NCBI RefSeq assembly: GCF_040183065.1
Contig: NC_091122.1
Location: forward strand, 159,179,455-159,243,454
DNA: 64,000 nt
Direction of reading: 5' to 3'
Source: Periplaneta americana
Taxonomy: Eukaryota > Arthropoda > Insecta > Blattodea > Blattidae
In this document: one piece after another, positions 3,052 to 58,766 of the stretch
How the letters are laid out: every line of letters begins with the position of its first letter
Numbering within the stretch: position 1 is the first letter of the stretch
The notes under the pieces: generated by a model
What the model saw: only the letters and a program-made list of their open reading frames with translations
What the model was told of the DNA's origin: nothing
Databases searched by the model: none
Translations under genes and position numbers: made by a program

Positions 3052-6000
3052 GTAATTCGGCGACTGAATATTTTAAATGAAACTTCACGTTCACACAGAG
3101 TGAATCACGAAGTTTCACCGCTACTTGAGGAGGGCCTTCCTGAGATCAAATGGAGCAAACAAAGTAAATAAAAAGATAGGTCTGACTTATAATTAAGCCG
3201 TTATAGGTTATTGAAAATTTGAAAGTAGAGACAAAACTTTATATCTTCACTATAGGAAACTGTTCTCAAGCTTGTAACATTTTGTCTGTTGTAAACTTCA
3301 TTCTGCTTATCAAGATATTTTCAAACCTGTCTCCTCCTGCCTCCAAACACTTGGTCGCTCGCTTATGAATCGCGAGCGTCGCATTCCTAAACTTATCCGG
3401 GCTGTTTCTGCGGCGTCCAGAAAGTGCACAATTGGACGAAGTTACGCATAAATACGCATCATTGTATAAATGTACAAAGGAATATTTCATATTTGAAATT
3501 GGAGTGATATTTTAAGCATTAGACTACCTTAATGGTCGACTTCTGAAATCGATTGTACATAGGAATCACTTGTATGTAGTTATGTGGTAATATCACAGTC
3601 TAGTATATACAGTCGCGAAGCTTGGGGTGATTTTTTGCATTTCTCGCGATAGTTGCTAGCCGCTTGGAGCGCTGTGTGTACTAGGAACAATAGACTGTGT
3701 CACTGGCATCGTGATCTAATACAGGCCGTAAGGCAGACCATGTGACTCGCTTAACCCGATCACGAAGGGCGGCGTTTCAACCATATAAATTAATTGGAAT
3801 GCATAAAAAATAACATATATTTCTCTAAAATGTAGTGTAATTGCATTTATGAAATTTAAAACAATGATTAGGAGGCATTTCAGACATAATTCCTTGCGAG
3901 TTAAAGTGTAATATTATTTTTGGTGTGAAAATTACGTTGTTCGTATGTGTAATAGACCTACCTGCCTCTATTTCGATTCAATATTGCGAAATTATTGTAC
4001 ATTCATTTATGCACGATTCAATAATTTTCAGTTGCACCGCACGAATATTTAGATATGTTGAAATTATAGGTTATGTTTACTGTCCCAGTTGCCCCTTTCT
4101 GTCTAATTTTAGTGGTCTCCAATGCCCTGCCATTCATATGGAAATATTATAGGTTATGTTTACTATATCTTGTATTCCTAAATTCGCAATTACACATTAT
4201 AATTAAGAATAATGTCATGTATGATACTTCGCACATTCAATTTGTCTGTATTTTAATACTACAATTGAGTATTGAATTATTGTATTTATCTACTACCTAA
4301 GAGACGAAGTAACAATCGTACGTACACTAATTTCATAAGAGTGGTATGATAAATTTTCTGTCTTTATCAAGGAAGGTAGCTGTGCTATATTAAAATCACA
4401 ATATAAATTCTTTTTTTATTAAACCTCAAAATAGCTTCCATTCTAAACTTAAAATGTTGATGCGCAAAGATTATGTTAACATGTAAAATTCTCTTCACAT
4501 TAAAATAACACAGTTTTGTAATTATTTCTGAAACATATTATGCAACAAGAACTAAACGGAACTTATGGACACATTACACTAAATAAAACTTAGCTATGAT
4601 ACGCAATAAAGTTATAATATAATAATTCACTGAGCTACATACACTGAAATAGAAAACCCGAACATATATTATGGCCTGGTCTAGATCGAAAAGGCATTGA
4701 CTGTGCCGTATTTCGCATTGTTGTGAAAAGTTGTGTAAACTGTGAAATGTTCGTTATCGGTTGTAATAACTGTAAATGGCTAAAATACAATAATTTGAGT
4801 AATAATATGGGACAAGGAGACGTTTGTAGCACTGTAAATTCTAAGAAAAAGAGGTCAGAGTTACCCTTCCGAGAGATCCAGGAAGATGAGTTTATAAAAT
4901 ATAATACATACTTTATGAAAATAATATATAAACCTTATGTATTTCGTATTTCAATAGTGGAAGGAAGGTGTTAATTTTTCAAAAGAACAAGATATCAAAA
5001 GTACAATACATTTTATCGTCTGTTAGGGAGAGTCCGTGATGAGGCGATAGTAGCGATCCTGGTAGCTAGCAACTATCTATGGATGCATATTTCAACTGTC
5101 TATGTTTGCATATTTAGTAAGTATTGAGCTTCGCAACTATATATACTAAGCTGTGGTAATATGATGAACATGTAGAGTTTGATATGTTTAAATAAGATAT
5201 GTTGACCAGCTCTATTGATATTATCGTATAATGGTCGATTGCTGAAATCGATTGTACACAGTAATTAGTTGTATGCAGCTACGAGGTAATAAACATTTAG
5301 AATTTGATACGTTTAAATAAGGTATAAGTTAACCAGTTCTATCGGTTCTCTCGTGTTAATGGTCGGCTGCTGAAATAGATTGTACACAGAAATCAGTCTT
5401 ATGTAGTTACGTGGTAATACCACAGTCTACTATATACAGTCGCGAAGCTCAATATGTAGTAAAAATGCAAACATGGGTAGTTGCCCACCACTAGGATCGC
5501 TACTATCGCCTCATCATCGCAGCTCTCTCTCCTAACAGACTACACTTTCGTTGTCTTGTTCTTTTGGGAAAAATTAACACCTTCCTTCCATTATTGAAAT
5601 ATTAAATGCATAAAGTTAATTTATTATTTTAATGAAGTATATTAAATTCCACCATAAACTCGAAGATACCTGCAAGAAATAAGTTAATATAATTTTTGTT
5701 TGTGTAAAACGAACTGAAATTTACTATAATAGCTTCACTCATTCAAGATTATAGCGATAATTAACTATGAAACCAATAAATATTAATTTGCATTTCCCTT
5801 TACAACAATAATAGGCCTAATGGAAATATGAATTAATGGAGTAACTTACGTGTACCGGTACTTGTAGTGTAGGCTTACGTAGTTAACAAAGTGGGATGAC
5901 GTTAAGCAATAATAATCACACCAGAATTGGAAATAAAACGTGATCAATAAATTTTATTGTAATAGGCTTTTTCTACGTCTCTAGTAAAGCAACAAATAAA

Positions 6001-8349
6001 AATAACAACAAAATTAACAGCTATGATTAAAAACGTCCTTTGAAAAAAAAAGTAGGCCTAAGCAATAATAATCCCACCAAAATTGAAAATAAAACGTGAT
6101 CAATAAATTTCATTAAAACAAACTTAATTTTTCTACGTCTTTAGTAAAATAACACATAAAAATAATAACAAAATTAATAGCTACAATTAAAAATATATCC
6201 TCTGAAAAAAAAGTAGACCTAACCTTTATTTCTCTGGACAGAAGTGACAGAACTTTAACCGGTATCTAATGTCCTTTCGGTTAGACTGAAAAATTTCATT
6301 GTGAAATTTAAGGATATAATGTATTCTAACAGTCACAAAGAACTTCAAAATTAAGAGTTTTGTTTCTGCACAGCATTCTTGTGGAAACCCAGGAACCTTT
6401 CTGAATCTTTCGGAAATCGGAAAAAGGATAACTCTGGCCTTTTTCTCTTACTGTTGCTACAATTTATAGCAGTACAATGTCTCCTCCTTGTCCCATATTA
6501 TTATTCAAATTATTATATTTTAGCCATTAACATTTTCATTACAACCAATAACGAACGTTTCACAAGCATCAATGTGAAATACGCAACGAGCTAGCACTCG
6601 ATAGAAATACGACACAGTCCAAAGTCGACCATGGACAGTCTATTGTTTCTAGTTGCTAACCGCTTGGAGCGCTTTATCACGAGATTTGCAAAATAACACC
6701 CCAAGCTTCGCGACTGTATATAGTAGACTGTGGTAATACGATAAACGTTCAGAATTTGATACGTTGAAGTAAGAGTCAGTCGTATATAGTTACGTGGTAA
6801 TAAGATAAACATTTAGAATTTCATAAACTTCAGTAAAATATATATGTTAACCAGTTTTCGTGTTAATGAACGATTGGCAAAATCGGTTGTACACGGGAAT
6901 CACTCGTATGTAGTTTCGTGATAATATGACAAATATTTAGAATTTGATACGTTTAAGCAAGACATAAGTTAACTAGTTCTATAGGTACTCTCGTATTAAG
7001 CCAGTTATTTCAACTGCGTAACCAATGACGTCGTTTCCTCTCTTGGAGGTGATCTGGTAGAGCACGTGAGGGAATGTAATGTTGTCTCCAATATTGAAAC
7101 ACCTCTATTCCTTCTACTGCCACTCCCCTACTTTGCTATTTCACCTATGCTTTCTCTCTCGAAGAGCACGAGAGCAGAGAAGTGTGATGTCACAGAACCA
7201 GTAATTGGAAATGTCTGCCCTAAGCAGAAAACACTAACGTTCAATATAGAAATGGATATATTTTTTAAATGTCATTGTGAAATATAATTTTGCTACAATT
7301 TTCACCAGTGGATAGTATACACAGATACTGACATAAAATAAAGATTACTTAATAAACTTTTTAGTACTTTTGAGTCGTAAGAGATAACTCTACAAATACT
7401 CACAGATCATTATTTTGTGGTGTGTATAATTGCATATAACGCAATACTTCACAAAATAATCATAATCACAATTTTTTTGCAATGGTCATCCAATCTTAAC
7501 TTGGTAGTCTAATTATTAAAGTTCTGCTATAACTACTATGAAAATAAAACTTATCTCAAATTAAATATCTGTTGCTTCCTTATGTACTGTAAAAGATATC
7601 ACTGCTTATTATCTAGATCTATTATATACGTATTTTTTTTATTTCGAATAAATTTTTATTCAGCTTCCTCCAAGTGAAGGCTGCCTAGAAGACAAAGTTT
7701 ACCATAAAATTGTTATAATGGAAAAAAAGAAAACAATGGAGAAGAAAAAGAATAAGAAACAGCACAATTAGAAATAATTGGAAAAGACTAAATAAAACAT
7801 CATTAATTCCAGAAGAAACATAAAATTTCCTACTATATATTAGCTATTGGGTGATCACAGTCGTCTATTTGCAAGACCCAACTTAAGTGCGCAGATCGCC
7901 ATAGCAAAGAGATCAATCTATATAACTGTAGAGATGGTTTCTTAGGATTTTTATAGATCCAATAGGACAATAATGAAAAATTAATCAATTTCTAATACAC
8001 AATAAGGTAAGTTAGCAATTTTCCAGTTTTGTATATTACGAGTATAAGGAAAAATAATTTAAAATGTGTATTTTTATAGGTAGCCCCAGCGGAACTTGAG
8101 GAGATCTTGAGAAGTCATCCCCAAATAGAAGACGCGGCTGTTATTGGCATTCCTGATGAGAGGGCGGGAGAGATTCCTAAAGCTTTTGTTGTTCCAAAAG
8201 GAAAAATTTCAGAAGAAGATGTAAAGAAATTTGTGGCAGAGAAAGTATCGGAGTACAAACACCTAAAAGGAGGAGTGGAATTTATCTCAAGCATTCCTAA
8301 GAGCCAAACAGGCAAGATCCTACGAAGATTGCTCAAAGAACAGCGTTAA
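2896..8349 (+). CDS. acyl-CoA synthetase (4CL/luciferase-like), copy 1, 3' part
   Basis: The last two coding exons of an ANL-superfamily acyl-CoA ligase: 2896-3051 and 8080-8349, separated by a 5.0-kb intron; earlier exons must lie left of the window. Enzymes of this family activate a carboxylic acid with ATP to an acyl-adenylate and transfer it to CoA; the substrate cannot be read here. Exon 1 of this pair has GWLHTGD and the [11 protein letters not shown] hinge, and the last exon has the SQTGKILRR catalytic-lysine motif and ends KEQR before TAA. The exons match copy 2 at identical boundaries (43/52 and 77/88 residues), so this is a tandem paralogue. The reading frame is intact in the visible part. 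The C-terminus lacks an SKL-type peroxisomal signal. Confidence 0.88.
3594..5154 (+). mobile_element. P-like transposon, non-autonomous (copy iii)
   Basis: The termini are imperfect inverted repeats: CACAGTCTAGTATATACAGT at the left and the complement of that motif ending AGCTGT at the right. The 8-base target duplication GGTAATAT is at 3586-3593 and 5155-5162. Near 4819-4890 on the + strand, a degraded copy of the THAP-like segment seen in the 5421 element is recognisable ([11 protein letters not shown]). No intact transposase remains. Assignment to the P superfamily is inference from the THAP relic, 8-bp duplication and CA-starting repeats of the family. Confidence 0.68.
5421..6731 (-). mobile_element. 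P-like transposon, non-autonomous (copy i)
   Basis: Almost perfect ~29-bp inverted repeats, starting CACAGTCTACTATATACAGT and continuing CGCGAAGCT, bound 1311 bp. The 8-bp duplication GGTAATAC is at 5413-5420 and 6732-6739. Inside are two adjacent ~150-bp direct repeats (about 5905-6055 and 6060-6215, both with AAAACGTGATCAATAAAT) and, on the minus strand, a THAP-like coding relic. Copy ii at 23267-24219 is a shorter relative in the opposite orientation. Confidence 0.75.
6351..6479 (-). pseudogene. THAP-domain-like transposase relic
   Basis: Read on the minus strand from 6479, the frame gives [18 protein letters not shown] followed by [11 protein letters not shown] and stops at 6351. This is the start of a THAP zinc finger: the first two Cys (C-x4-C), then the basic stretch and the FxFPKD motif. 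The later Cys and His of the C2CH signature are missing, so the domain is broken. THAP domains are the DNA-binding part of P-element transposases, which fits the surrounding terminal repeats. Confidence 0.65.
7006..8079. other. end of copy 1 last intron, no recognised feature
   Basis: AT-rich intron sequence between the satellite and the final exon of copy 1. A segment around 7660-7690 (CAGCTTCCTCCAAGTGAAGG) resembles one at 32050-32075 and may be an old interspersed repeat. No coding region is supported. Confidence 0.4.
8080..8349 (+). CDS. copy 1 terminal coding exon
   Basis: An acceptor in TTTTTATAG precedes 89 codons and TAA. It starts [14 protein letters not shown], includes the GIPDE and [10 protein letters not shown] blocks of the ANL C-terminal lid domain, and ends with [17 protein letters not shown], containing the lysine used in adenylation. 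It aligns without gaps to the last exon of copy 2 except for one extra C-terminal Arg. Confidence 0.92.
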   Translation, partial: VAPAELEEILRSHPQIEDAAVIGIPDERAGEIPKAFVVPKGKISEEDVKKFVAEKVSEYKHLKGGVEFISSIPKSQTGKILRRLLKEQR

Positions 8350-9720: not shown

Positions 9721-10694
9721 CAGCCGTCTGGGGCTGTCGTGTGGGCAAATCGGATGGCAATAAGCTTTATCGCCACTCCCTTAGGAGTGACTATGTTGTT
9801 TCTGCCCCGAGTACACCCACGCCTATCCCAGACAATGCTAACCATCAACCAGACATTTCAGATATTACATTATTCAAAAATATAAATTTTCATACCAAAA
9901 TTTCGGTACATGACTCGTTAAAAAATTCAGATCATAAACCTGTTATCATTACGTTTCGAGCGCAACTACAATTATCCCCTCCAAAAACTGTGCTACTCTA
10001 CAAAGCAGCCGACTGGGAACTCTTTCGCGATAAGTTGGACGCTCTTACAGATGACTTGGTTCCTACATCATCTGTTAAGATCGAAGAAGCTGCTAAAATG
10101 CTAACGAATGCTATACAGGAATCTATGTCGGTAATTCCAACGAAAACTATTATTCCGGGGAAATTAGAGCTTCCACATGATACCTTAAAATTAATCAGGG
10201 AAAGAAATGACTGTCGACGTGCCTGGCAAAGAACGCGGGACCCTCGCCTAAGACCAAGGATGAATCGTTTAAAAAGGGACATTTCTCAGAAAATAAACGA
10301 TCAGATCATCCAAGCCTGGACTCAAAAAGTTAGTAATTTAGATACCGACAATATGAGCGAAGTGTGGAAAATTACAAAGTTCTTCACTAAGCCATATAGT
10401 GACATCCCTCCCATCCAGCACAATGGGACAACATGCAATAGTCCAGAGGAGAAAGCAACTATTTTCGCGGAAGTCCTCGAGAACTCCTTCCATGACAGAC
10501 AAATATATGACAAAATAACACAAGACACAACTACGTACCTACGAAACGTGGACCTCAACAATAACGACGCACTACTGATCCGTCCTGCTAGTGTTGACGA
10601 GATAAAATGGCAAGTTAGACACTTGCCAAATAAAAAAGCTCCTGGCACCGATGGCATACAAGCTGAAGTATTGAAACAATTATCACAAAAATCG

Positions 10695-11272
10695 TTTAAA
10701 AGGTAGCTCATTAATATAGATTTGGAAAAGTATCGGTGCCAGAATGCTGCCCTGAGGCACTCCAGCGTTAATACCTCGCGACGTGGAGTGCACGTCATTC
10801 AGTTTAACCTGGAACGTTCTGCCCCGAATATAATTGTCCAACAGCTTCACTAGGCGGCAATTTAAATTATTGTTAATTAATTTGTATATCAAGCCCGCAT
10901 GCCATACTCTGTCAAAGGCTTGTGTATAATCTAGGAATATAGCCGCTACTGTTCGATTTAAATTGAATGCAGTGGTAATGAATTCCGTTGTGCGCAGCAA
11001 TTGCTGTGTGCATGAATGACCTGAACGGAATCCAAACTGTTCGTTTCGGATGATATCATTGTTTCCGATTTCGGATTTCAATCTTTTTTGTATGATCTTT
11101 TCCGCAACTTTACCTAAAACATTTAGTAAACTAATGGGTCGATAATTAGGTGGATCAGATTTATTCTTTCCTGGCTTAGGAATTTGAATAATATACGAGT
11201 GTTTCCAAATGTTAGGAAAATAGCCTATCCGAAAGATAGCGTTTATGATGCTTGTAAGCAATTTAATCAAAA
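10695..11272 (-). pseudogene. inverted RT core segment of the Jockey-like LINE
   Basis: About 578 bp read on the minus strand and encode RT blocks that normally lie between the NKKAPG and YADD blocks: LTSIINAIFRIGYFPNIWK, the PKPGKNKSDPPNYRPISLLN segment, FGFRSGHSCTQQLL, DYTQAFDRVWH and GVPQGSILAPILFQIYINEL. The frame is open throughout. Short AAAC/GTTT matches lie at the two junctions. The inversion may have happened in the genome or arisen in assembly. Confidence 0.75.
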
Positions 11273-11874
11273 CTTCAACAATAGCATTCTAGCGCTATAC
11301 GCGGACGATTCGGCTTTTCTCACGGCATCGTGGAAGCCAACTGTTGCCATTAACAGGCTACAAGGTCACCTACGTGACATTGAAGCATGGCTCCTCAGAT
11401 GGAGAATCAAATTAAATATTTCCAAAACACAAGCAATTTTATATAGCAGAAGAAATAAATTCAATAGACCGGGAATAAATCATACAAACTTAGCCATAAA
11501 TGGATCACAAATCGAGTGGAAAACTTCAGTAAAATATCTCTGAGTAACACTAGACAGACGGCTTACGTTTCTTCAACACGTACAACAGAAACTCAGACTT
11601 GCCAATTCTAGAATGGTGGAGCTATACCCAATTTTAAATAAAAGCAGACATTTAAACATACATGCAGCCTTAATTTTGTATAAAACATTAATCAGATCAG
11701 TAATATTATATGCTTGTCCTGCTTGGGGACACGCACCTATTACAGTTCTTAAAAAATTACAGGTTTTCCAAAACAAACTTTTAAGATTCATTACAGGACT
11801 ACCTAGAGTTACACCAGTTAGATTGATTCATACAGAACTAGAAATTTGCACAATTCAAGAATATATCTCAAACC

Positions 11875-16175: not shown

Positions 16176-16357
16176 CACAGTCTAGTATATACAGTCGCGA
16201 AGCTCAATACGTAGTAAATATGCAAACATTAGGTAGTTGCTCACCACTAGGACCGCTAATATCGCCACATTACAGGCAATGCAAAATAGAACCGTCACAG
16301 TCTATTGTTTCTAGCACTCTCAAAACTCAAGCTTCGTGACTGTATATAGTAGACTGT
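16176..16357. mobile_element. minimal P-like MITE (copy iv)
   Basis: Only 182 bp, with the same termini as the large P-like copies (CACAGTCTAGTATATACAGT at left, complement at right). It is flanked by CATGATAC (16168-16175) and GATGATAC (16358-16365), a 7/8 match consistent with an 8-bp duplication. The interior keeps the subterminal GGTAGTTGCTCACCACTAGG block. Confidence 0.7.
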
Positions 16358-16394
16358 GATGATACCAGTAATTTGTTATATATGAGAGTCGTAC

Positions 16395-23266: not shown

Positions 23267-24219
23267 TACAGTCTACTATATACAGTCGCGAAGCTTGAGG
23301 TGATTTTTTGCAAATCTCGTGATAAAGCGCTCCAAGCGGTTAGCAACTAGAAACAATAGACTGTCCACGGTTGACTTTGGACTGTGTCGTATTTCCATCG
23401 AGTGCTAGCTCGTTGCGTATTTCACATTGATGCTTGTGAAATGTACGTTATTGGTTGTAATGAAAATGTTAATGGCTAAAATACAATAATTGGAATAATA
23501 ATATTTTACTAGAGACGTAGAAAAATTAAGTTTGTTTTAATGAAATTTACTGATCACGTTTTATTTTCAATTCTGGTGGGATTATTATTGCTTAGGCCTA
23601 CTTTTTTTTTTCAAAGGATATGCTTTTAATTATAGCTGTTAATTTTGTTGTTATTTTTATTTGTTACTTTACTAGAGACGTAGAAAAAGTCTGTTACAAT
23701 AAAAATTATTGATCACGTTTTATTTCCAATTCTGGTGTGATTTTATTGCTTAACCTCATCCCACTTTGTTAACTACGTAAGCCTACACTACAAGTACCGG
23801 TACGCGTAAGTTACTCCATTAATTGTTGTAAAGGGAAATGCAAATTGATATTTATTGGTTTCATAGTTAATTATCGCTATAATCTTGAATGAGTGAAGCG
23901 ATTATAGTAAATTTCAGTTCGTTTTGCACATACAAAAATTATATTACTTATTTCTTGCAGATATCTTCGAGTTTATGGTGGAATTTAATATACTTAATTA
24001 AAATAATAAATTAACTTTATGCATTTAATATTTCAATAATGGAAGGAAGGTGTTAATTTTTCCAAAAGAACACGACAACGAAAGTGTAACATATTTTGTC
24101 GTCTGCTAGGAGAGAGATCTGCGATGATGAGGCGATAGTAGCGATCCTAGTGGTGGGCAACTACCCATGTTTGCATTTTTACTACATATTGAGCTTCGCG
24201 ACTGTATATAGTAGACTGT
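23267..24219 (+). mobile_element. P-like transposon, non-autonomous (copy ii)
   Basis: The terminus TACAGTCTACTATATACAGT at left and its complement at right bound 953 bp; the 8-bp duplication GGTAAAAC is at 23259-23266 and 24220-24227. The interior is the reverse complement of parts of copy i, including two of the AAACGTGATCA-type direct repeats, but the THAP segment has been deleted. It ends 355 bp before the start codon of acyl-CoA ligase copy 2. Confidence 0.75.
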
Positions 24220-24220
24220 G

Positions 24221-28631: not shown

Positions 28632-31600
28632 GTATGTATAGTAATATGTTCAGACTGTCAATGTTCATTAGGTCCACTTGACAGGTCATATAATAGGATG
28701 AAGTCCTCTTCAATACTAGAGGCCTTTCAGCCCGCCTTGGGGATAAGGAAATAATTTGTCCTGCAGCAGAAAATATTTAAATACAGCAGTACCTACGTTG
28801 TTGTCTGCTAGAATTAAGTAAAACACGTGAACTCTGTTTGAATGTTTGAGCTGACCGGTAACGGCTACGGTTAACCGAGTAACTTCGGTGCTCCGCTGCC
28901 AAGCACATAAACCGATAGAACCGAGTAACTCAACAGTTCTACTCGCTCCGTCCCCAGCTCTATATTATACCCGTATGTCTAGTTTCCTTAATCTATACTA
29001 ATAATAAATCTGTAGCCAAAATTCTGTAGTGTTCGGGAAAAGTGACACAAGTCAGTTTCCACAAACCTTTTTTGATAATTTATTGACAACTTACGGAACA
29101 TCTGCTCGCTTGGAAAAACATACATAGGTATTCCTCCCATTACAATAATTCATACAGAAAAAATCAAATCGACATATACCAGTGTAAGTTGTCAAAAAAA
29201 TGAAGTAGGATTCATAGCTCAAAAGTTTTCATGTCCCTCAGCGACGTTGAAAGAGTTAGCGTTTCAATGAACAACCAAGTACATATCTGCAACTAGTTCG
29301 AAAAATACTGTTCACTATGAATTGAAAATGCACTGTGATGGCCTGAGTTCGTTTCGTAGGGAGAGACGGAAAAATACTGTGCCTATGATCACGAACCGGA
29401 TTGTACACTAACGCACAGGCAAACAAAACTCAATGCGCCACCTCACTCCATCTGTACTCCGTTGCACTTGTAGCTTCACTTCATTCCTAAGTTGTCTCTT
29501 ATCCTAACCTGATAATCAGACTTCAGATGTATAGATTCCGCCATAATTCACTGAAGGGTTCTCGAATCGGATAGTAATTCTCGATTACGGGCTGACTGTG
29601 TAAGGTTTATTATTGAAAATAAAGTTTTATGGATCACACTGAAGAAGTACAATACATGCTTACTGAATACAAGAAACAGTACAAGAATATAAATTTAAGA
29701 GAACAGAAAAATAAGATAAAACAGTGCACTATCTGCAACTATATTTATAAACAATTTAATGTGCAATAGACTATACAGGATAAACAAAAGTGTGGACTAT
29801 TGCTTTTAACTTCATCGCTTTTAGTTTCATTAAAAATGTTAAGGGGAGTTTGTAGTTCCATATCTTACAATGTTAAATTTCTCAATTTGGGTACACTTTT
29901 CTCAGAAGTTATGAAAGATACAAATGTATAAAAAATTAGGGCATATGTGACATACGTTTATGTATAGGACCGGCTAAATAAATTTAAAATTCCACTGAGC
30001 GGTTGGCAAAAAACCTTGATAACATTTTTGCATTAAGAATGATTGCAAATTATTTTTTATTTTTGCTGAAGATAGAAATAAACTTAATTTTTTTAACTTA
30101 CTGTATAAAATGCCATCACATTGATATTGTATATTAATTTCAGCCTTCTGGGTATAATACTTTCCGAGAAAAGTGTACCAATGTCACAAAGAATAAGAAA
30201 GTGCGGAAAAATGGTGTCAAAGTTTCCATAGCTTGTAATGTTAAAATTCCTCAATTTTGGGTGCACTTTTCCCAGAAGTGATAAAAGATACAAATGTAGA
30301 AAAATAGGGCATATGTAACATACTTTTATGTATACACCCGGGTAAATAAATTTAAAATTCCGCTGAGGGGTTGGGAAGAAAAATTTTTTCATTGATAACA
30401 TTTTTTGCATTAAGAATTACAACAATATTTTTGCTGAAGATAGGGCTAAAACAGACAATTAGAAGAAATAAAATCATATTATCATTTTACACATATTAAA
30501 CTACCGAAAAACGATAAAAACCAAAATTTCATTTTTTTTTGTCAGAGTTGGTGTTGGAGAGGTGGAGAAGTTCAAATATCTTGGAGCAACAGTAACAAAT
30601 ATAAATGATACTCGGGAGGAAATTAAACACAGAATAAATATGGGAAATGCCTGTTATTATTCGATTGAGAAGCTTTTATCATCCAGTCTGCTGTCAAAAA
30701 ATCTGAAAGTTAGAATTTATAAAACAGTTATATTACCGGTTGTTCTTTATGGTTGTGAAACTTGGATTCTCACTTTGAGAGAGGAACATAGGTTAAGAGT
30801 GTTTGAGAATAAGGTGTTTAGGAAAATATTTGGGGCTAAGAGGGATGAAGTTACAGGAGAATGGAGAAAGTTACACAACGCAGAACTGCACGCATTGTAT
30901 TCTTCATCTGACATAATTAGGAACATTAAATTCAGACGTGTGACGTGTGCAGGGCATGTAGCACGTATGGGCGAATCCAGAAATGCATATAGAGTGTTAG
31001 TTGGGAGGCCGGAGGGAAAAAGACCTTTAGGGAGGCCGAGACGTAGATGGGAAGATAATATTAAAATTGATTTGAGGGAGGTGGGATATGATGATGATAG
31101 AGAATGGATTAATATTGCTCAGGATAGGGACCAATGGCGGGCTTATGTGAGGGCGGCAATGAACCTCCGGGTTCCTTAAAAGCCATTAAGTAAGTAAGTT
31201 GGTGTACAGTCTCCCCTTATAGACCTACATGATCCTGCAGTTGGTTCTGACGAATTTCAGCACGCTGTTCTGACTGAATAAAAGCTTTAGAAATATCAAA
31301 ATAACTTAATATATAGCTTAAACAGTGCGATTTATTGGCATGTAATATATATTTTTTTCAAATAACATATTTCAAGTGATCCCTTCGGTATCTTATGATT
31401 TGGTGCAATCCTAACCGAAAATTTTTCATGACACGTTACAATAATCCTGAGGTCTCTGCCTGTATCCTGTTCATCAGATCCTGAATACAGTGTGGTCTGG
31501 TTTGAAACACCCTTTCTTTGAGGTATTCCCACAGAAAAAAATCAGCAGCTGTAAGGTCTGGGGATAAAGCTGGCCAGCTGATATCGCCAAATCAAGAAAT

Positions 31601-34600
31601 TAAGCGCTCAGGGAAAAGATTTCTCAACAATTGCATTATGTCTGTTACATTAAGACCCGTACCCCCATCAATTTTCACGAAACTGTCCTGTATCTGCCTA
31701 CGCTTAGATAACGTTAATTATGCATTTAATTCTCAGGAATGCATCGTCACAGGGCGACACTACACGTATGCAGAAGCGCGAGAACTCTCTGGACGATTCG
31801 CAGCATCGCTGTACAGAATTGGTCTGCAACCCGGCAATACATTGGCCATTATAATGCCCAACTCCGCTGAATGGCCTATCGTCTTCTTGGGAGCCCTCGA
31901 AGCGGGGATTGTAGTCACCACAGTCAACCCAGTTTACACAGCTGGTTTGTATAGTCAAACAGTGAAAAATCTTTCTTAAACACCGAAAATGCTTAAAAAT
32001 AAGATTCACGGTAACATATTGTATTCATTTCTATTTCTATTTATATTTATAAAGCTTCCTCAAATTAGAGGCTGCCATTATATAAAGAACAAATAGATGA
32101 TGAAAGATAACAGAGTGAGAAAAATGACAAACAAGTAAACAAACAAACAAACAATGGCAATTAACAGAATAAGCTAACAAGGAGAAGAATGATAATGGCG
32201 CATCAGTTTTTTCAGTGCACTGAATTAGAGTCCATACAGGTGGTTCCGTAAGAGTTTGACTGACTCTCTAATTATGAGGAGGGCCAGTTCATTTAGAAAA
32301 GATTTGTGCAATCCTTAGGTCTTACAGAATTGAGAAGAGAAGTTAGGTATCGTTCCTCTTGCTCCAAACATCAATCCCGTGACACTGATATCGTGAAGTT
32401 GGTATTTATCTTTATAATAAATCTTCATTTCATTCTCTATTAGGATTGACAGAAATCAAAATTCTGTGCGTAGTCATTATCCACAACGACGACGTTAAAC
32501 TTTTCGAGGGAGGGGGAACTTCTTTTTTCGAAAACTATGAACTTCCCACCGATATGGTTTTAGACTTCTTTGTTATACTATTCAGTATGATCAATTCCGA
32601 CTGAAAATCTGCAGAGCTATTTCACTTCCACTCTGTACATTTCTTAAGAAACTTCTTTAAGCAAGGTACGAGTAGAACGCTGTGAAACAAAATTCTGTGA
32701 TGGACGTTTTAAGTGGGCTTTGCGCGTTATAACCCGTCTGAAAAATCATTGCAGACGGCAGGTAGAGTAAGCTTGAACATAAACATGCGATCGATACTGC
32801 ATTACGTCACCCTGTTCTGACGTACTACGCACAGCGCTGCAGTAAAGAAATGCCTCAGTTCAGTTCGTTCAGTCTGCTAGTCGGTATCGGAAGTGTGTGT
32901 GTACACAAGAGCGAATGGAAACTCCGCCGAGACACTCGTCACGCGAAGTCTTACACTCGCAAAGCAGAAAGATTGTATACAATGTGCTAAAATTTTGTAA
33001 AGAAGAGAAAAAGGAAGGTCTTATCATTCCATTAACGAACGCTGTGAAAAGAACAGCAACGGCGGTGGGGAAGAGTGAAAGAACAATACGTACTATAGCT
33101 AAGGAGGTGAGGAAGCAAAGCGCATTGGAGGACAATTTTCAACTCCTGGTAAAAGCCGCCCACATCCAAAGAAAATTGTACTCGATGATTTTGAAAAACT
33201 GTGTCATCCGCAGAACTTTTTTGGAGTTTTATGAGAAGAGTAAAGAAATTCCGACTCTACGCAAGCTTCTGAATGCTGTTAAGAAAAAGATACATTCTGG
33301 AGGCTGTCAGTTTTGAAACAAATGACCGCACAATCAATAAGCGAAATCAGCAAATAAGTCTGGACAAAATGCTGTCAACCTGTTAAACATACCGAAGACG
33401 AATATTGGTGTCGTGACGTGTTAATGGAAGAGGAAGTAGAAAGGGTAGTAATAAATATAGGCATTGTGATTAGTGATGAAGAGTGTAAAGAAGATGAGAT
33501 GGATTATGATAGGCCAGGTAGGAGCACATACACAGCAGACGAAGGCAATCCAACTGATAGTGCAGATGAAATTGAGACCTCTGCCACGGGCATACATGTA
33601 CTTCTGGAATAAAGTATGTTTATATACCGTACATGACAGAAAAAGTAAATTCAACTATGGTATTGGTAATTGTATTTATGTTCATAACAGCTGTTGATGT
33701 TTTTATTGTCAGACTGTCCAAACATTTCTCCAGCTGACTCGCCACGCATCGAGACTGAGCGGATCGCATTCGCGACACACGAGCGCCCTCATCTGAAAAC
33801 TGCAATGTTTCATCAGACGGGTTATACTGCTACGAGATTGTTTACAAATAAAGCTGATCATGTTTGCGGTTTTCCACTAATTTGCACAAATTAGCCCATG
33901 AATTACTCTGGCAGTGGGGCTGTCAATAAGAAGTGCGGCTTCTGTATAGCATTGTGACGTTATATAGTCTAAAACAGTAAATGAAGTTACATTGCTGAGA
34001 ATTTTTTTCTAGAAAACATACCGAAATCCGGGGTTACACGAACGAGAGCGTGACATGAAAGAAAGTGTGCAAGAAAGTATGAGCCAAAAGCAGAAAAGGG
34101 TAGACTGGAAGAAGTGCGAGAATGCAGGGCAAGGGAAAAAAATATATATATCTGCAGTTCAGTTACAAAGTGTCAACGATTTAGTGAACGTTCTTACACT
34201 ATAAATAATCAACGAGCAACCATGGAATGTAAAGCCTGATCCACCTGGTGTCAGTGATTTAGAAACAAATCGTAGTTTACCACGCAAGGACTTTAAAGGG
34301 AATAAAAGTGCTCATCAAATATTTGAAAAGCAATTTACGAGTATAATCAATTAATTTGGTTTTGCGTGCTTCATCTCTCATATCTTATTTTTGCTTTTAT
34401 AAACAAATTGTAGCCACCGGCGTAGCTCTGACGGCTAAGGCGCTTGCCTGCCGGTCCGGAGTTGCGCACGGGCGCGAGTACGATTCCAGCTTGGGCTGAT
34501 TACCTGATTGGGTTTTACCAGAGGTTTTCCCCAGCCGTAAGGCAAATATCAGGTAATCTATGGCGAATCCTCGACCTCATATCGCCTAAATACCACCTCG

Positions 34601-35651: not shown

Positions 35652-38600
35652 GGGAATATCCTAAATTAAATGAAGCACGATCACTTAAAATAACATTTAA
35701 AATAAGTCTAATTTGTATCTTAAACCTAAGTTCGAACCAAAACCCACGAGTATGATAATGTTCATATCTGCACAAGCTACCTTTCCACATTACACTCATT
35801 TCGCTGTCAACTCACTCACTGCACTGGAACTACGACACATTTCACTGATTCTATCCTGATTTCACTAACACTTCAAAAACATTTCACTGTTCAAATACTT
35901 TGCACTGCCACTATAAACTATAAAGCTTCACTGACAGGAACACGTTTCACTTACACAACAAACTTCACTGACACAACACACTTCACTGACACGACATAAT
36001 TCTTCACTGATACAACACTTCAATAACAAAATATAATTTACACCCTTTACATACTGTCTATAATTACCGTCTATTAGTAAAGCCCTTAAGCCTATTTTAA
36101 ATATATTTTTGGTTGTTGGTAAAGCCTTTAGTAAGTCTGCAGGTGAAGCATTCCAGTCCCTGATAGTACGATTGAGAAAAGAAAACTTTCCAGTGTCCGT
36201 CCTCTGTCTTCTTTCCCTCAATTTATTTTTGTTTGTTTCAGATGAAATGTCACACCAGCTTCGAGACTCGGGGGCAAAAGCGGTTGTGACAATCTCTATG
36301 AATCATTCAAAAGTAATTAAAGCTTTCAATATGGTCGCTGGCAAGAGTAAACCTCTTGTTATCATAGCACCAGGATTCGAACAGAGGTCTCAGTTACCGG
36401 ATGGAGCTATAGACCTGATGGAGTTGCTGCAGGACGGCATAGATACTTCGAATGTCCGTTTCTCTGGAAATATTGACGATATGGCAATACTTCCGTATTC
36501 TAGTGGAACAACAGGACTGCCCAAAGGCGTTATGCTCAGTCAAAGGCACTTAGCTGTTGGCTGTGAACAACAGAACAATCGCACAGAAATATGTTTAACT
36601 CAGCCTGCTGTCGGTAAGTATTTATTTCTTGAGAATTAGTCCAACTAACCACTTCGGTAGCTCAGTACTAGAGTGCTAGCCTATCATTACAGGGACACGA
36701 ATTTGATCCCAGCTTTAAATGGAATGATACTTAGGTGAATGAGAGTTTTTTTTGCCGTTTTCTTCAACTCTTTTATTTTCACATTACCCTTTCCGTCGTT
36801 ACATTAAAAAAGTTTCAGGGTAAGGTTACGATCTTCGGTGATGCCGAGTGGAGACTAGCAGACTTCTATATGAATATTCACGAAAGAGCTCCCACGTGGA
36901 TGGGGACGCCCGGTGATTAGAAATAGTTCTATTCCTAGTACTGTCGATGGGTCGATGGGTGCTGAATGGTGTCACTCGAAAAAAATACATTATTATAGTC
37001 TCTTAACGAAATACTTTTTCTCTGGATTTGTATTATCTAGTAGTCGTTGTCAATGGCCTGTTTCTGTTCGTAAATGGAAAAGATACCTGTAAGGTTTGAA
37101 TAATTTCAAGGGAAAAATTGTTCCGGGGCCGGGTATCGATCCCGGGACCTCTGGTTGAACGTACCAGCGCTCCGCCAACTGAGCTACCCGGGAACTCCAC
37201 CCGACACCGTCTCAACCCTTCCCTTTATATCCACACAACTCGCGTGGGCTGACGAAACGCCAGAGACCCACATCGAGTGCACACAATCTCTGTGTGACTT
37301 GGAATTGTGGTTTTCTGTTAACGTACACAGTGACGTATATATTATGCAAATCTAGTCTTTCAGATGAAGCTCCCTGTAAAGCATATTTGAATAATTTCAA
37401 GGGAAAAATTGTTCCGGGGTCGGGTATCGATCCCGGGACCTCTGGTTGAACGTACCAGCGTTCTGCCAACTGAGCTACCCGGGAACTCCACCCGTCACCG
37501 TCTCAACCCTTCCCTTTATATCCACACAACTCACGTGGGCTGACGAAACGCCAGAGACCCACATCGAGTGCACACAATCTCTGTGTGACTTCCGGCCCCG
37601 GAACAATTTTTCCCTTGAAATTATTCAAATCTGCTTTACAGGGAGCTTCACCTGAAAGACTAGATTTGCATACCTGTAAGGTTCTTCACATGCTGAGGGA
37701 CATATGGGCTCATTGCAGTTTTGTTTTTAGAAACCATCGGTACCTTGAGAACTTTCATTTTGATCGAAGGAAACAAACAAAAAAATATCAGTACACAAAA
37801 ATATGCAGTTCAAATAAAAACCATGTATGCTGCAGTAATAGCACTTTTTAAAAAAAAAAAAAAACCTTTTGTAAAATTTAGAAAATGTTGATCTATTTTT
37901 CTGCATATGCTTTTCTTATGTGCATGTTACAGGGTCACATCAAGACATCACTCCAGTGTTAATGCCCTATTATCACATATATGGAATGTGTGTATTGATG
38001 CTGAGCAATATGTGCCATGGTGCGAAGTTGGTTACAATACCCAAATTTGAACCGAAGACCTTTGTAAAACTACTTGAGAAATACGATGTAAGTATCGTGC
38101 TTGTAGCTCAGTTTCAAAAAGGTCTGAATTCCAAAATGGACAAAAATGATTTCAAGGTAAGATTTTCGAAGTGGAATAATTTCACTTTTTTTCTGTCACC
38201 AACAATTTAGCATCCCTCCATTATTCATAGACTAATTTGAATCTCTTACTTTACAACGCAGTATCATATGTAAGAATATGTACCGTCAATGGATTTGATT
38301 TTAGTGAGGTAAATTTTGACGAAATGATTTGAAGAATTATAAGGTTTTTGGCTGGAGGAAACATTAACAAAAATTCAGCTAGGTAATCACCCAAAGAGAA
38401 ATTAGAATCCACCTCTATGTTGTGATCCCTACTCGTTAAATCACGCCAGAAGTTTTAATATTAGTGTTCATACCGAAGAAATACTCGCAACGGTGTTCTG
38501 GTGGCTAGAGCGCTAGACTTATAATCCTGTTGACTCGGGTTCGATCCCGGTGTACCCCCGATTTATAATTTGTGTTGGCCAAGCCCGCGGTCCAGGTAAT

Positions 38601-54643: not shown

Positions 54644-55507
54644 GGGGAGAGGATGGTATTTTTTAAAACTTCTTTCCTATTTGGTGTAAAATATTAATTT
54701 TTTGTATGTAGAGAGCTCATAGCTGTGGAAACTCAACCAAATAAAAATATAAAAAAAAATTATTTGGGGGCCCAAATTAAAAAAAAAATACCCAATGCAG
54801 GATTGTACTAAATCCGATATATCTAAACCGTTTTTAAAGATAGATTCAAACAGTTTTTTGCAATGTATTTGCAAAAGCATGTTCTACAAACTGTCTGTAA
54901 CAGAATTTTTATATTAGTCCTTACGTTTGTAAAATAAACAATTAAAATATAATAACTATTTTCTGATTTCCTTTCTTGCACACAAACGGACGTATTTTTT
55001 AAATGAAATCAATTAACAAAATTCTGTTATAGAGAAAATTTCCTAATAGTCTAAAGAATGTGTGTTCTAAATTTCATGCATGTATCTTTAATAGTTCAGA
55101 AATTATATCCATTTTTGTCTGGCAATGTAGAAAAAAATGAAGTTACTGGAAAACGATAAAAGCGGGCGTGTGATTTAAAAATCCATAGCGCAGGAAGTTT
55201 AAAAATGACGTCTCAACATCCGATAAGGGCACAAATACCCTCACAATGTTATGCAATGCATTCCACACATATCAAAGGGTATTTTAAAGATTTTTTTTTA
55301 ATTTAATTTACCGGAAACAACAATAAAAAGTGGGCGAGTGATTTAAAAATCCATAACGCAGGAAGTTTAAAAATGGCGACTCAACATCCGATAAGGGTAC
55401 AAATATCCACAAAATGTTGTGCTATGCATTCCACATATATCACAGAGTATTTTAAAGATTTTTTTTTAATTTACTCATTTTTCATCAAAAAATACCATCC
55501 TCTCCCC
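54644..55507. mobile_element. TTAA-flanked MITE (piggyBac-type)
   Basis: GGGGAGAGGATGGTATTTTT at left and its complement at right are bounded by TTAA at 54640-54643 and 55508-55511, the piggyBac target and duplication. Inside are two direct ~160-bp repeats (about 55148-55305 and 55313-55470, both with GTGATTTAAAAATCCATA). There is no transposase. Confidence 0.78.
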
Positions 55508-56599: not shown

Positions 56600-58686
56600 T
56601 TGTTGTTGTTGTTGTTTTCTAATGCCAGGCGTTTGACAATAAAGTCATTTGACCTCTTGCACTCCAAAATTTTTCAAAGATATTATCATGACCAGCCAAT
56701 GAAGCACAGATTTTGAGGTGTTCCGAATTCATTTCTTGGTTTGAGTTGCACAATGGGCAGTTAGGGGACTGATATATTCCAATTCTATGCAGGTGTTTAG
56801 CCAAACAATCATGGCCTGTTGCCAATCTAAATGCAGCTACAGACGATTTTCGTGGTAAATCGGGAATTAACTGTGGATTTTGATGCAGAGAGTTCCATTT
56901 TTTCCCTTGGAATTGTGTTATCAAATTTTGTTTGTTGAAGTCTAAGTATGTAGATTTAATAAATCTCTTCACAGAGTAATACGTAGATTTAGTAACAGGT
57001 CTGTAAGTAGCAGTGCTGCCCTTCTTTGCTAAAGCATCCGCATTCTCGTTTCCCAGGATTCCACAATGGGATGGTATCCATTGGAATACAATTCTTTTAT
57101 TGAGTGATATTAATTGAGAGAGCATTTTAGTTATTTCTGCTGTTTGAGATGAAGGTGTGTGTTTAGAGACGATTGACAGAATAGCTGCTTTGGAGTCTGA
57201 CAATATAACTGCATTCTTAAATTTATTGATGTGGCATAGAAGATTCCTGAGACATTCACTTATTGCAATGATTTCACCATCAAAACTTGTTGTTCCATAT
57301 CCAAGTGATCTATAAAGTGAGAAGAGACAGCACGTAACACCTGCACCGGCACCTTGTTCTCTGGAGATCAAGGATCCGTCGGTGTATAAATGAAGCCAGT
57401 TTTGTGGAGGATACCTGATATTAATTGTCTCTAAAGACAATTATTTCAGTATTTCAGTGTTTACTTCTGATTTCAGTAATTCTTCTGTTAAATTTAGATT
57501 ATATTCTATATTTAATAGAGTTAAAAGGTTTGGTTTAATTTGTAAGTTTTCTTTTAATTCTTGAACAATGGATATGAAACTTTTTTTTGAGTTTTCAATC
57601 TACAGAGAGGACTGTATGAATGCCAATTGTTTCCTGGTAATCTGATAAGTTTTTCATATTGAATCAGTGCTTTTTCTTCTATTGTCATTTTGATACTGTT
57701 TTTTATTAGGTTATTTTACGACGCTTTATCAACATCTTAGGTTATTTAGCGTCTGAATGAGATGAAGGTGATAATGCCGGTGAAATGGGTCCGGGGTCCA
57801 ACACCGAAAGTTACCCAGCATTTGCTCATATTGGGTTGAGGGAAAACCCCGGAAAAAACATCAACCAGGTAACTTGCCCCGACCGGGAATCGAACCCGGG
57901 CCACCTGGTTTCGCGGCTAGACGCTCTAACCGTTACTGCACAGGTGTGGACTTGATACTGTTAATATTAGTGAGGAATCTCATAGAATCTATTGGAGTTG
58001 TCTTGATTCCACCAGTAATGAGTCTGAGAGCTTGGTTTTGAACATATTCTATGTCGTTTATGAAAGGTGAAGTAATTAAAATTTCTCCGCAGTATGTCAG
58101 CACTGGCTGTATAAACATTTTTTATGTAGTGTTCAAAGTATTCCTAGAGCGTCCCCATTTCTTTCCTGCTAGTCTTTTTAGAAGGGAGAATCTTTTACGA
58201 GCTTTTTCAGAAATGTATTTCAAATGGTTGCTCCATGTTAACTTATTATCGAAAATAAGTCCAAGATATTTGGATTCATAAGTCCTAGGAAGGTGTTGGC
58301 CATTGTATTGGATATTGAATTCCCTTTCTTTTTTTCCGAGTGAAAATATTTGGTAGTTACTTTTGCTTAAATTGAATGTCATCAAATTTGATGTATTCCA
58401 TTCATGTAGTTGATTGAGAGCCTTAAGAGCAGAATTTTGAATTTTGTCTCTATGTCTGGTAGATCCGGAAGTCCACAAAACTATATCATCTGCAAATAGT
58501 GCTGTTGTCATGTTTGATTCCTCTAATAGGGAGGGTAAGTCATTTATATAAATATTGAATAAAGTTGTGCTGAGGACAGCGCCTTGAGGTAGACCTCGAT
58601 ATGTTTGTCTGTAACTAGAAAGAGAATTATTGAATTTAGTGGCAATGAATCTTTGACTAAGGAATTCTGATATCCATCTGAACATG
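56600..58686 (-). mobile_element. I-type LINE (RT plus RNase H), 5'-truncated
   Basis: The minus strand encodes RT blocks (YRGLPQGAVLSTTLFNIYIN, ALFADDIVLW, YLGLIFDNKLTWSNHL), then an RNase H domain (LHLYTDGSLISREQG, the E of FDGEIIAISEC, ILSDSKAAI, IPSHCGILGNENADALAKKG) and a C-terminal CPLCNSNQEMNSEHLKIC finger. The RNase H places it in the I group. It ends in a CAA-repeat tail. GAGAATGT at 56592-56599 and 58687-58694 is the duplication. Stops and a SINE at 57701 interrupt it. Confidence 0.8.
57701..57951 (-). mobile_element. tRNA-derived SINE, family A (copy 4), inside the LINE
   Basis: Minus-strand full-length copy with the head at the right end (GCTCTAACCGTTACTGCACA) and tail at the left. 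The 11-base TTGATACTGTT duplication is at 57690-57700 and 57952-57962. Confidence 0.9.
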
Positions 58687-58766
58687 GAGAATGTAAAATC
58701 GTACGTTTAATATGAAATGTCATGATTCCAATGTTTCATTATCGAAAAACAGTGTATAAATTCAAA

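Follow-up and report, generated by a model that had tools for sequence, protein, structure and literature searches.

An abundant family of internally deleted transposons in Periplaneta americana assigned to the P superfamily through a coding relative in the same genome

We investigated a 64,000-nt stretch of the Periplaneta americana genome (the window: NCBI RefSeq assembly GCF_040183065.1, contig NC_091122.1, positions 159,179,455 to 159,243,454), in which four short elements with matching inverted ends raise the question of which transposon superfamily they belong to and what could have moved them. The best explanation of the whole, in which we place very high confidence, is that the four are non-autonomous, internally deleted members of a single group of cut-and-paste elements of the P superfamily.

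The elements, designated here by their first positions, lie at 3594..5155 (plus strand; a non-autonomous member of a divergent subfamily, within the 7-bp duplication GTAATAT), 5421..6732 (minus strand; a 1,312-bp internal-deletion derivative, duplication GTAATAC), 16176..16358 (no strand assigned; a 183-bp miniature class, duplication ATGATAC) and 23267..24220 (plus strand; a 954-bp class without exon 1, duplication GTAAAAC). All four share the 29-bp terminus CACAGTCTASTATATACAGTCGCGAAGCT. Its 27-bp core is present without mismatch at six of the eight window ends, the right ends of 16176 and 3594 deviating at 1 and 4 positions, respectively, and 23267 has T, not C, as its first base, its left end reading TACAG. 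The original prediction placed four elements with matching ends at these sites, and all were confirmed, with the symmetric ends CACAG..CTGTG putting each right edge one base farther out.

Internally, 5421 (minus) and 23267 (plus) are 92–96% identical over their main shared parts, and 16176 has ~95 bp in common with the 3' end of both. A tandem repeat with a period of 156 bp (2 copies; 5903..6222, minus strand) occupies part of 5421, and a 24-bp motif, AGCGCTCCAAGCGGTTAGCAACTA, is located at 6650..6673, 60–83 bp from the 5' end of this element, with a relative (19/24 identical) at 5478-5501, 58–81 bp from the 3' end; in 3594, the 5' motif is reversed in orientation. These subterminal motifs are putative transposase sites; the THAP site of Galileo, a P-superfamily element of Drosophila, is reported to be centred ~70 bp from the end (PMC3688188). 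The element 3594 further contains a decayed region that can be aligned with exon 1 of the full element described below (4807..4887, plus strand), the open frame of which gave no Pfam THAP match at E≤1, and a ~1-kb stretch that is private to it among the copies compared (3700..4698). This stretch is flanked by two GACTGTG repeats and is, tentatively, a possible nested insertion; the GACTGTG pair is a 7-bp match within a scanned stretch and could be due to chance.

Target-site duplications were compared, with the ends taken as symmetric, across 29 insertions, namely, the four window copies and 25 on contig C1, the latter comprising 20 pairs from the first 25 Mb, chosen for an exact match at both ends, together with L001-L004 and L008 (L005, whose second end could not be located, and L006/L007, which denote the L011 element again, were omitted). 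Perfect duplications of 5, 6, 7, 8, 9 and 10 bp numbered 0, 0, 21, 1, 0 and 0, respectively; all four window copies are perfect at 7 bp, and the single perfect 8-bp case is L015. The eight insertions imperfect at 7 bp match at 6 positions (L009, L025 and L008), 5 (L013) or 3 (L015, L018, L026 and L001). The duplication is 7 bp, instead of the 8 bp initially proposed (perfect at three elements and 7/8 at the fourth). An eighth base appears to be duplicated because the left copy is frequently preceded by a G identical to the last G of the element; no such G precedes the left copy at 16176, which explains the earlier reading of 7/8 there. When the 21 perfect cases are read on a single strand, their most frequent letters give the palindromic consensus RTAWTAY, and insertion duplicates 7 bp at a target of this type. 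Both 3594 and 5421 are held within a ~125-bp repeat, with unoccupied copies alongside (e.g., 6773-6842), so that the undoubled target is visible next to them. This tandem-like repeat extends over window positions 3529-7000, with units around 5228, 5356, 6773 and 6897, flanking the first two elements and interrupted by them.

The CA-starting ends, the 8-bp duplication as first read, and the 11 of 29 sites that can be read as perfect at 8 bp if the ends are taken as unequal would all suit hAT elements, with the THAP-like peptide of 5421 present by chance. Against such an identity stand the 21 of 29 insertions that fit 7 bp with equal ends, along with the nature of the encoded proteins. The THAP start predicted on the minus strand of 5421 scores above the Pfam cut-off (PF05485, 26 and 25.8 bits against 23.9), in an open frame at 6354..6497 (minus strand) that corresponds to profile positions 1-37 of 87, that is, only to exon 1 of a two-exon domain. 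Among 99 stop-to-stop pieces (at least 25 aa) from the four elements and their rims, there was no THAP match at E≤1 outside 5421; weak matches to eight further Pfam families in this set (best E 0.0024) were taken as chance. The second THAP exon is kept in L024 and L028, copies of another deletion class, where it follows TTTTACTTCTAG and reads CKKWLINSRRED...FCSLHF...WNAVPTLF. When exon 1 of L010 is joined to exon 2 of L024, the product covers the entire domain (PF05485 positions 1-87 of 87, 66.6 bits, E 3.6e-18) and matches THAP2 (E 2.7e-8) and THAP1 (E 7.3e-8) in the PDB. The family thereby displays the N-terminal C2CH THAP domain of the P superfamily, with the exons drawn from two copies.

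A full-length relative with the same termini, which the original prediction had proposed to seek, was found in the same assembly and encodes a P-type transposase. It was located by a pattern in which the end of exon 2 is not followed by the junction present in the miniatures; this pattern occurred at nine places (reversed control, 1), two of which, near C4:122.4 Mb, lie in the copy that was read in detail, L090 (fetched stretch C4:122402500-122409200, minus strand). The element is 4,770 bp long, carries both family ends, each deviating at 1 position of the 27-bp core, and is flanked by a perfect GTATTAC duplication. In order, it contains exon 1, a donor-like AG|GTGAGT, exon 2, a coiled-coil-like repeat region, with no Pfam family over the cut-off, and open frames of 345 and 354 aa, the exons being predicted from the sequence. 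All of the following Pfam matches exceed their cut-offs: PF21787 (TNP-like RNase H N; 108.9 bits), PF21788 (GTP-binding domain; 58.4), PF21789 (RNase H C; 39.4), PF12017 (P-element HTH; 26.2) and THAP exon 2 by itself (38.2). The match in the PDB is the Drosophila P transposase structure 6p5a (E 2.9e-16 and 2.5e-4), and D230, D303, E531, D339(2)H and D444 of this chain, counted on the printed chain numbers of the alignments, are aligned to D, D, E, D(2)H and D in L090; the roles of these residues in P transposase are described in PMC8230255. L090 thus has a P-type RNase H, including the GTP-binding insertion, as well as the D, D, E, D(2)H signature.

These domains, together with the match to 6p5a, bear out the assignment to the P superfamily even though the 8-bp duplication was wrong as a ground for it; the assignment stands because 7-bp duplications are known within the superfamily, as reported for Galileo (PMC4168063). 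We consider membership as firm as sequence can make it. L090 carries a P transposase, not a hAT one, which rules out a hAT identity, and, with the THAP score over the cut-off, we give chance resemblance within a hAT family practically no credence. The full element measures 4,770 bp, its inverted ends are 29 bp long, and its transposase gene would be interrupted by one intron or more: exon 1 would encode the first half of THAP and exon 2 the remainder, after which come the coiled-coil-like region, the HTH, the RNase H with its GTP-binding insertion, and the C-terminal part. In L090, the frame is interrupted at the boundary between exon 2 and the repeat region and again between the two long open frames, so the copy as assembled would not yield a single protein and is presumably inactive at present, with an assembly error as a possible cause of the interruption.

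Alignment to the full element suggests how the shorter copies arose, namely, by internal deletions that took most of the gene and spared both ends. The element 5421 aligns to positions 1-333 and 3306-4770, with fewer copies of the internal repeat, which implies a deletion of ~2.97 kb starting at the end of exon 1. The junction lies at 6395..6396 of the window (minus strand; within a base or two), where the end of exon 1, ..TCAGAAAGG, is joined to TTCCTGGG.., that is, position 333 to position 3306 of 4770; in the full element, TTCCTGGG.. is found ~2.97 kb downstream. The other classes are deleted differently: 23267 aligns to positions 2-232 and 4048-4770, L024 and L028 align to 1-175, 511-822 and the 3' part from ~4132, and the 183-bp class is in register with the full element only at the ends, over 33 and 95 bp, and over a 16-bp stretch between them.

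K2P distances between the full copy and the derivatives range from 0.038 (3' end) to 0.048 (5' end), compared with 0.028–0.029 on average among the derivatives and 0.043 among six copies of the 183-bp class. By sequence, the full copy and the derivatives would belong to the same age group, and, given that the full copy is somewhat farther from the derivatives than these are from one another, L090 need not be their actual source. The element 3594 is alignable only in the ends, the exon-1 region and the 3' part and is ~27% diverged (K2P ~0.26–0.27 from the other copies over its last, 3', 265 bp), so it derives from an older relative, not from L090.

The retention of exon 1 in part of the miniatures could mean that their half-THAP peptides act as repressors and are kept by selection, given that the frame from the ATG through exon 1 is open in nine of the 13 copies looked at. 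It is, however, broken in the other four, including the window copy, where an indel relative to other copies puts the THAP frame of 5421 out of frame with the ATG of the family; a fifth copy (L020) has no second cysteine, the peptide is without the second zinc-ligand pair, the commonest form stops 14 residues past exon 1, and divergence is ~3%. We regard selection for such repressors as very improbable, and prefer to view the miniatures as deletion remnants that would have been mobile through transposase made elsewhere, in trans.

To assess the abundance of the family, we searched the 3.23-Gb genome of the window (91 contigs) for the 27-mer core of the terminus, which produced 57,895 matches with at most 2 mismatches (28,855 and 29,040 on the two strands), compared with 0 for the reversed control genome-wide at the same threshold, excluding chance as the source of the shared terminus. 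With two such ends each, this corresponds to about 29,000 elements, a count that is incomplete for elements with one decayed end or with more mismatches. These results reveal a very abundant miniature family that can be assigned to the P superfamily and has a coding relative in the same genome.

Coding copies are far scarcer. The 345-aa frame of L090 gave one match at 100% identity, itself, among the best 117 of 2,519 first-look candidates that were scored; within this set, the next match by score was 59% identical, and the top identity of the remainder was 61%. Any close copy would be expected among the highest-ranked candidates, so, as far as the searches could see, there is one recognisable transposase-coding copy among the candidates scored. 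P transposases of other kinds are plentiful in the genome, as indicated by PF21787, for which all 150 scored matches, the best of 2,964 candidates, pass the cut-off. Paired family ends were absent at 30 RNase H loci and 30 THAP loci, each taken with 1.5 kb on either side and searched with at most 5 and at most 8 mismatches, a span within which more distant ends would be missed. Two longer loci were rejected as full copies. In L009, the long pair of ends reflects an expanded ~160-bp tandem repeat, and in L010, an element with a 1.7-kb insert; in neither was a transposase recognised among frames of at least 60 aa, which were inspected visually and compared with the family for similarity. L009 (306-3821; C1:8.86 Mb) is itself a family copy expanded to 3.5 kb, with ~17 copies of the ~160-bp internal repeat compared with 2 in 5421. 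With ~29,000 pairs of ends and a single recognisable coding copy, the frame of which is interrupted, the family seems to be nearing the end of its lifetime, and the ratio of one to tens of thousands offers a strong example of dependent elements that have outlived their source.

An alternative is that the window elements are moved by a different, still intact P family of this genome with slightly different ends. The nearest candidate is L091 (C2:108995800-109000600, minus strand), with an open frame of 865 aa from THAP exon 2 to the end. Its RNase H region is 59% identical to that of the window family, its THAP exon 1 is 76.7% identical over 30 residues, its 5' end reads CACAGTCTAAGACATACAGTCACGCAACT, and four places at 58–59% identity have stop-free frames of 472 to 865 aa. 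Conversely, this 5' end differs from that of the window family at 6 of 27 positions, L091 has a THAP-bearing miniature of its own, L067, and the sequence common to the window family and L090 extends inward from either end; we therefore consider mobilisation by L091 or a similar family improbable and retain a transposase of the L090 type as the likelier source of past activity in trans. The 3' end of L091 was not found within the fetched stretch. This second family of THAP-bearing miniatures is represented by L067 (2069-2400; C17:33.77 Mb), which has a 40-aa frame and the related ends CACAGTCTAATACTTACAGTCGCGCAACT; L067 is 88% identical to L091 over 331 bp, and its family has 3,679 first-look candidates genome-wide. 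L051 is a locus with a nested miniature. The loci L059-L088 carry multi-copy full-length THAP frames in one exon (such as CVPLCTSNRKKSGGTISFHEFPSDRERCEKWLK...AVPTIF) that belong to another repeat family.

We separately explored what excision of these elements leaves behind, searching for joined ends with the pattern CACAGTCTAS, 0-30 bases, STAGACTGTG, which is blind to footprints in which either end retains less than 10 bp. Genome-wide, it matches at 62 places (control, 1), and the results given here rest on 50 of the 62. Of these 50, 29 are 24–26 bp long, with 14 identical to CACAGTCTACTATATAGTAGACTGTG, and consist of the outer portions of the two ends, fused at TATATA. Flanks were fetched for 40 of the 50, including 26 of the 29; L100, L108, L111 and L113 share their flanks and count as one event, leaving 23 separate sites. 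A perfect 7-bp duplication surrounds 15 of the 23, a 6/7 match three, and neither five (L097, L103, L105, L114 and L120). Over all 40 fetched places, 23 are perfect and 33 match at 6 or more of 7 positions, compared with 364 of 7,791 combinations that reach 6 in a flank-swap control, a number to which sites with flanks in common contribute.

P transposase is reported to cut one strand 17 bp inside the end, producing 17-nt extensions (PMC7776569), and two 17-nt remnants annealed at TATATA would give a product of exactly 26 bp. Excision in the window family would follow the mode of P transposase, with cuts well within the ends and a stagger of perhaps 17 nt, and repair by joining at TATATA would leave footprints of 24–26 bp. 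The same product could be yielded by slippage deletions between the TATATA palindromes present in both ends. This possibility, which we consider unlikely though deserving of attention, draws on L119, which keeps 20 bp of one end, on L128 (44 bp), in which the join is TCGCGA-like (TCGTGA), and on 13 of the 50 products (eight of 42 bp and five of 46 bp) that appear to retain more than 17 bp of one end. Slippage should, however, use equally readily a second palindrome, TCGCGA, at end positions 20-25, outside the outer 17 bp, yet 29 of the 50 are 24–26 bp and only L128 is TCGCGA-like. Moreover, the 42- and 46-bp products reflect few events: of the eight fetched out of 13, seven fall into two shared-flank groups and may represent one or two events inside another repeat. 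The 24–26-bp remnants are likely, if not proven, to be excision footprints of P-type staggered cutting. A likely footprint of the sister P family was also observed in the L091 stretch (reverse complement, 947-976), ~235 bp before the element, where two outer 15-bp end halves are joined as a palindrome between CTTTTAC copies. Given the 23 joined-end sites, 18 of them within a 7-bp duplication matching at 6 or more of 7 positions, we lean slightly towards the conclusion that a P lineage with Galileo-like 7-bp duplications cuts with a long stagger, as Drosophila P does, and has one surviving coding copy for ~29,000 dependents. These natural joined ends offer material for testing the long-staggered cut of P transposase outside Drosophila.

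The family can be compared with several known P-type systems. It has in common with the Drosophila P element the transposase domains, the catalytic residues, the ~30-bp ends, an apparently spliced gene, internally deleted copies (non-autonomous deletions of 0.5–2.8 kb are reported in the fly; PMC7776569) and, as far as the footprints show, possibly the cut inside the ends. It differs in the 7-bp duplication, which falls within the 7–8 bp of the superfamily and outside the 8 bp of canonical P, in the intron that appears to split THAP, and in having tens of thousands of deleted copies. Galileo is described as having mostly 7-bp duplications with the consensus GTANTAC (PMC4168063), similar to those found here, and tandem-repeat growth inside some copies (PMC4168063), comparable to that in L009; in contrast to the very long ends and the lack of introns reported for Galileo (PMC3688188, PMC10990002), the window family has 29-bp ends and an apparent intron between exons 1 and 2. 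The P-MITEs of Anopheles gambiae are likewise miniature families linked to P masters in one genome, but their duplications are reported to be 8 bp long and their central region to bear no relation to that of the masters (PMC1562414), whereas the interiors of the 1–1.3-kb classes described here are the parent's own sequence. Zebrafish Pdre2 and human THAP9 combine THAP with a P-type transposase as well, and Pdre2, reported with 13-bp ends and 8-bp duplications (PMC7776569), also has internally deleted copies. The presence of the P superfamily is not new in itself, as one survey reports it among the DNA transposons of all arthropods covered (PMC6327564). The window family is named in no title or abstract of the literature searched, with most subscription journals and Repbase outside that search.

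The window contains several further features. AMP-binding domain pieces on the plus strand, at 31506-31979 (profile positions 13-83) and 36064-36639 (82-195), adjoin in the profile and are probably two exons of a host gene separated by a ~4-kb intron. Decayed retroelement pieces encoding reverse transcriptase and RNase H are located at 1293-1820, 10683-11543 and 56619-58706; in the second of these, reverse transcriptase frames lie on opposite strands (10683-11288, minus; 11130-11543, plus), indicating rearrangement. A 168-bp tandem repeat occupies 55158-55473 (1.9 copies, 90%).
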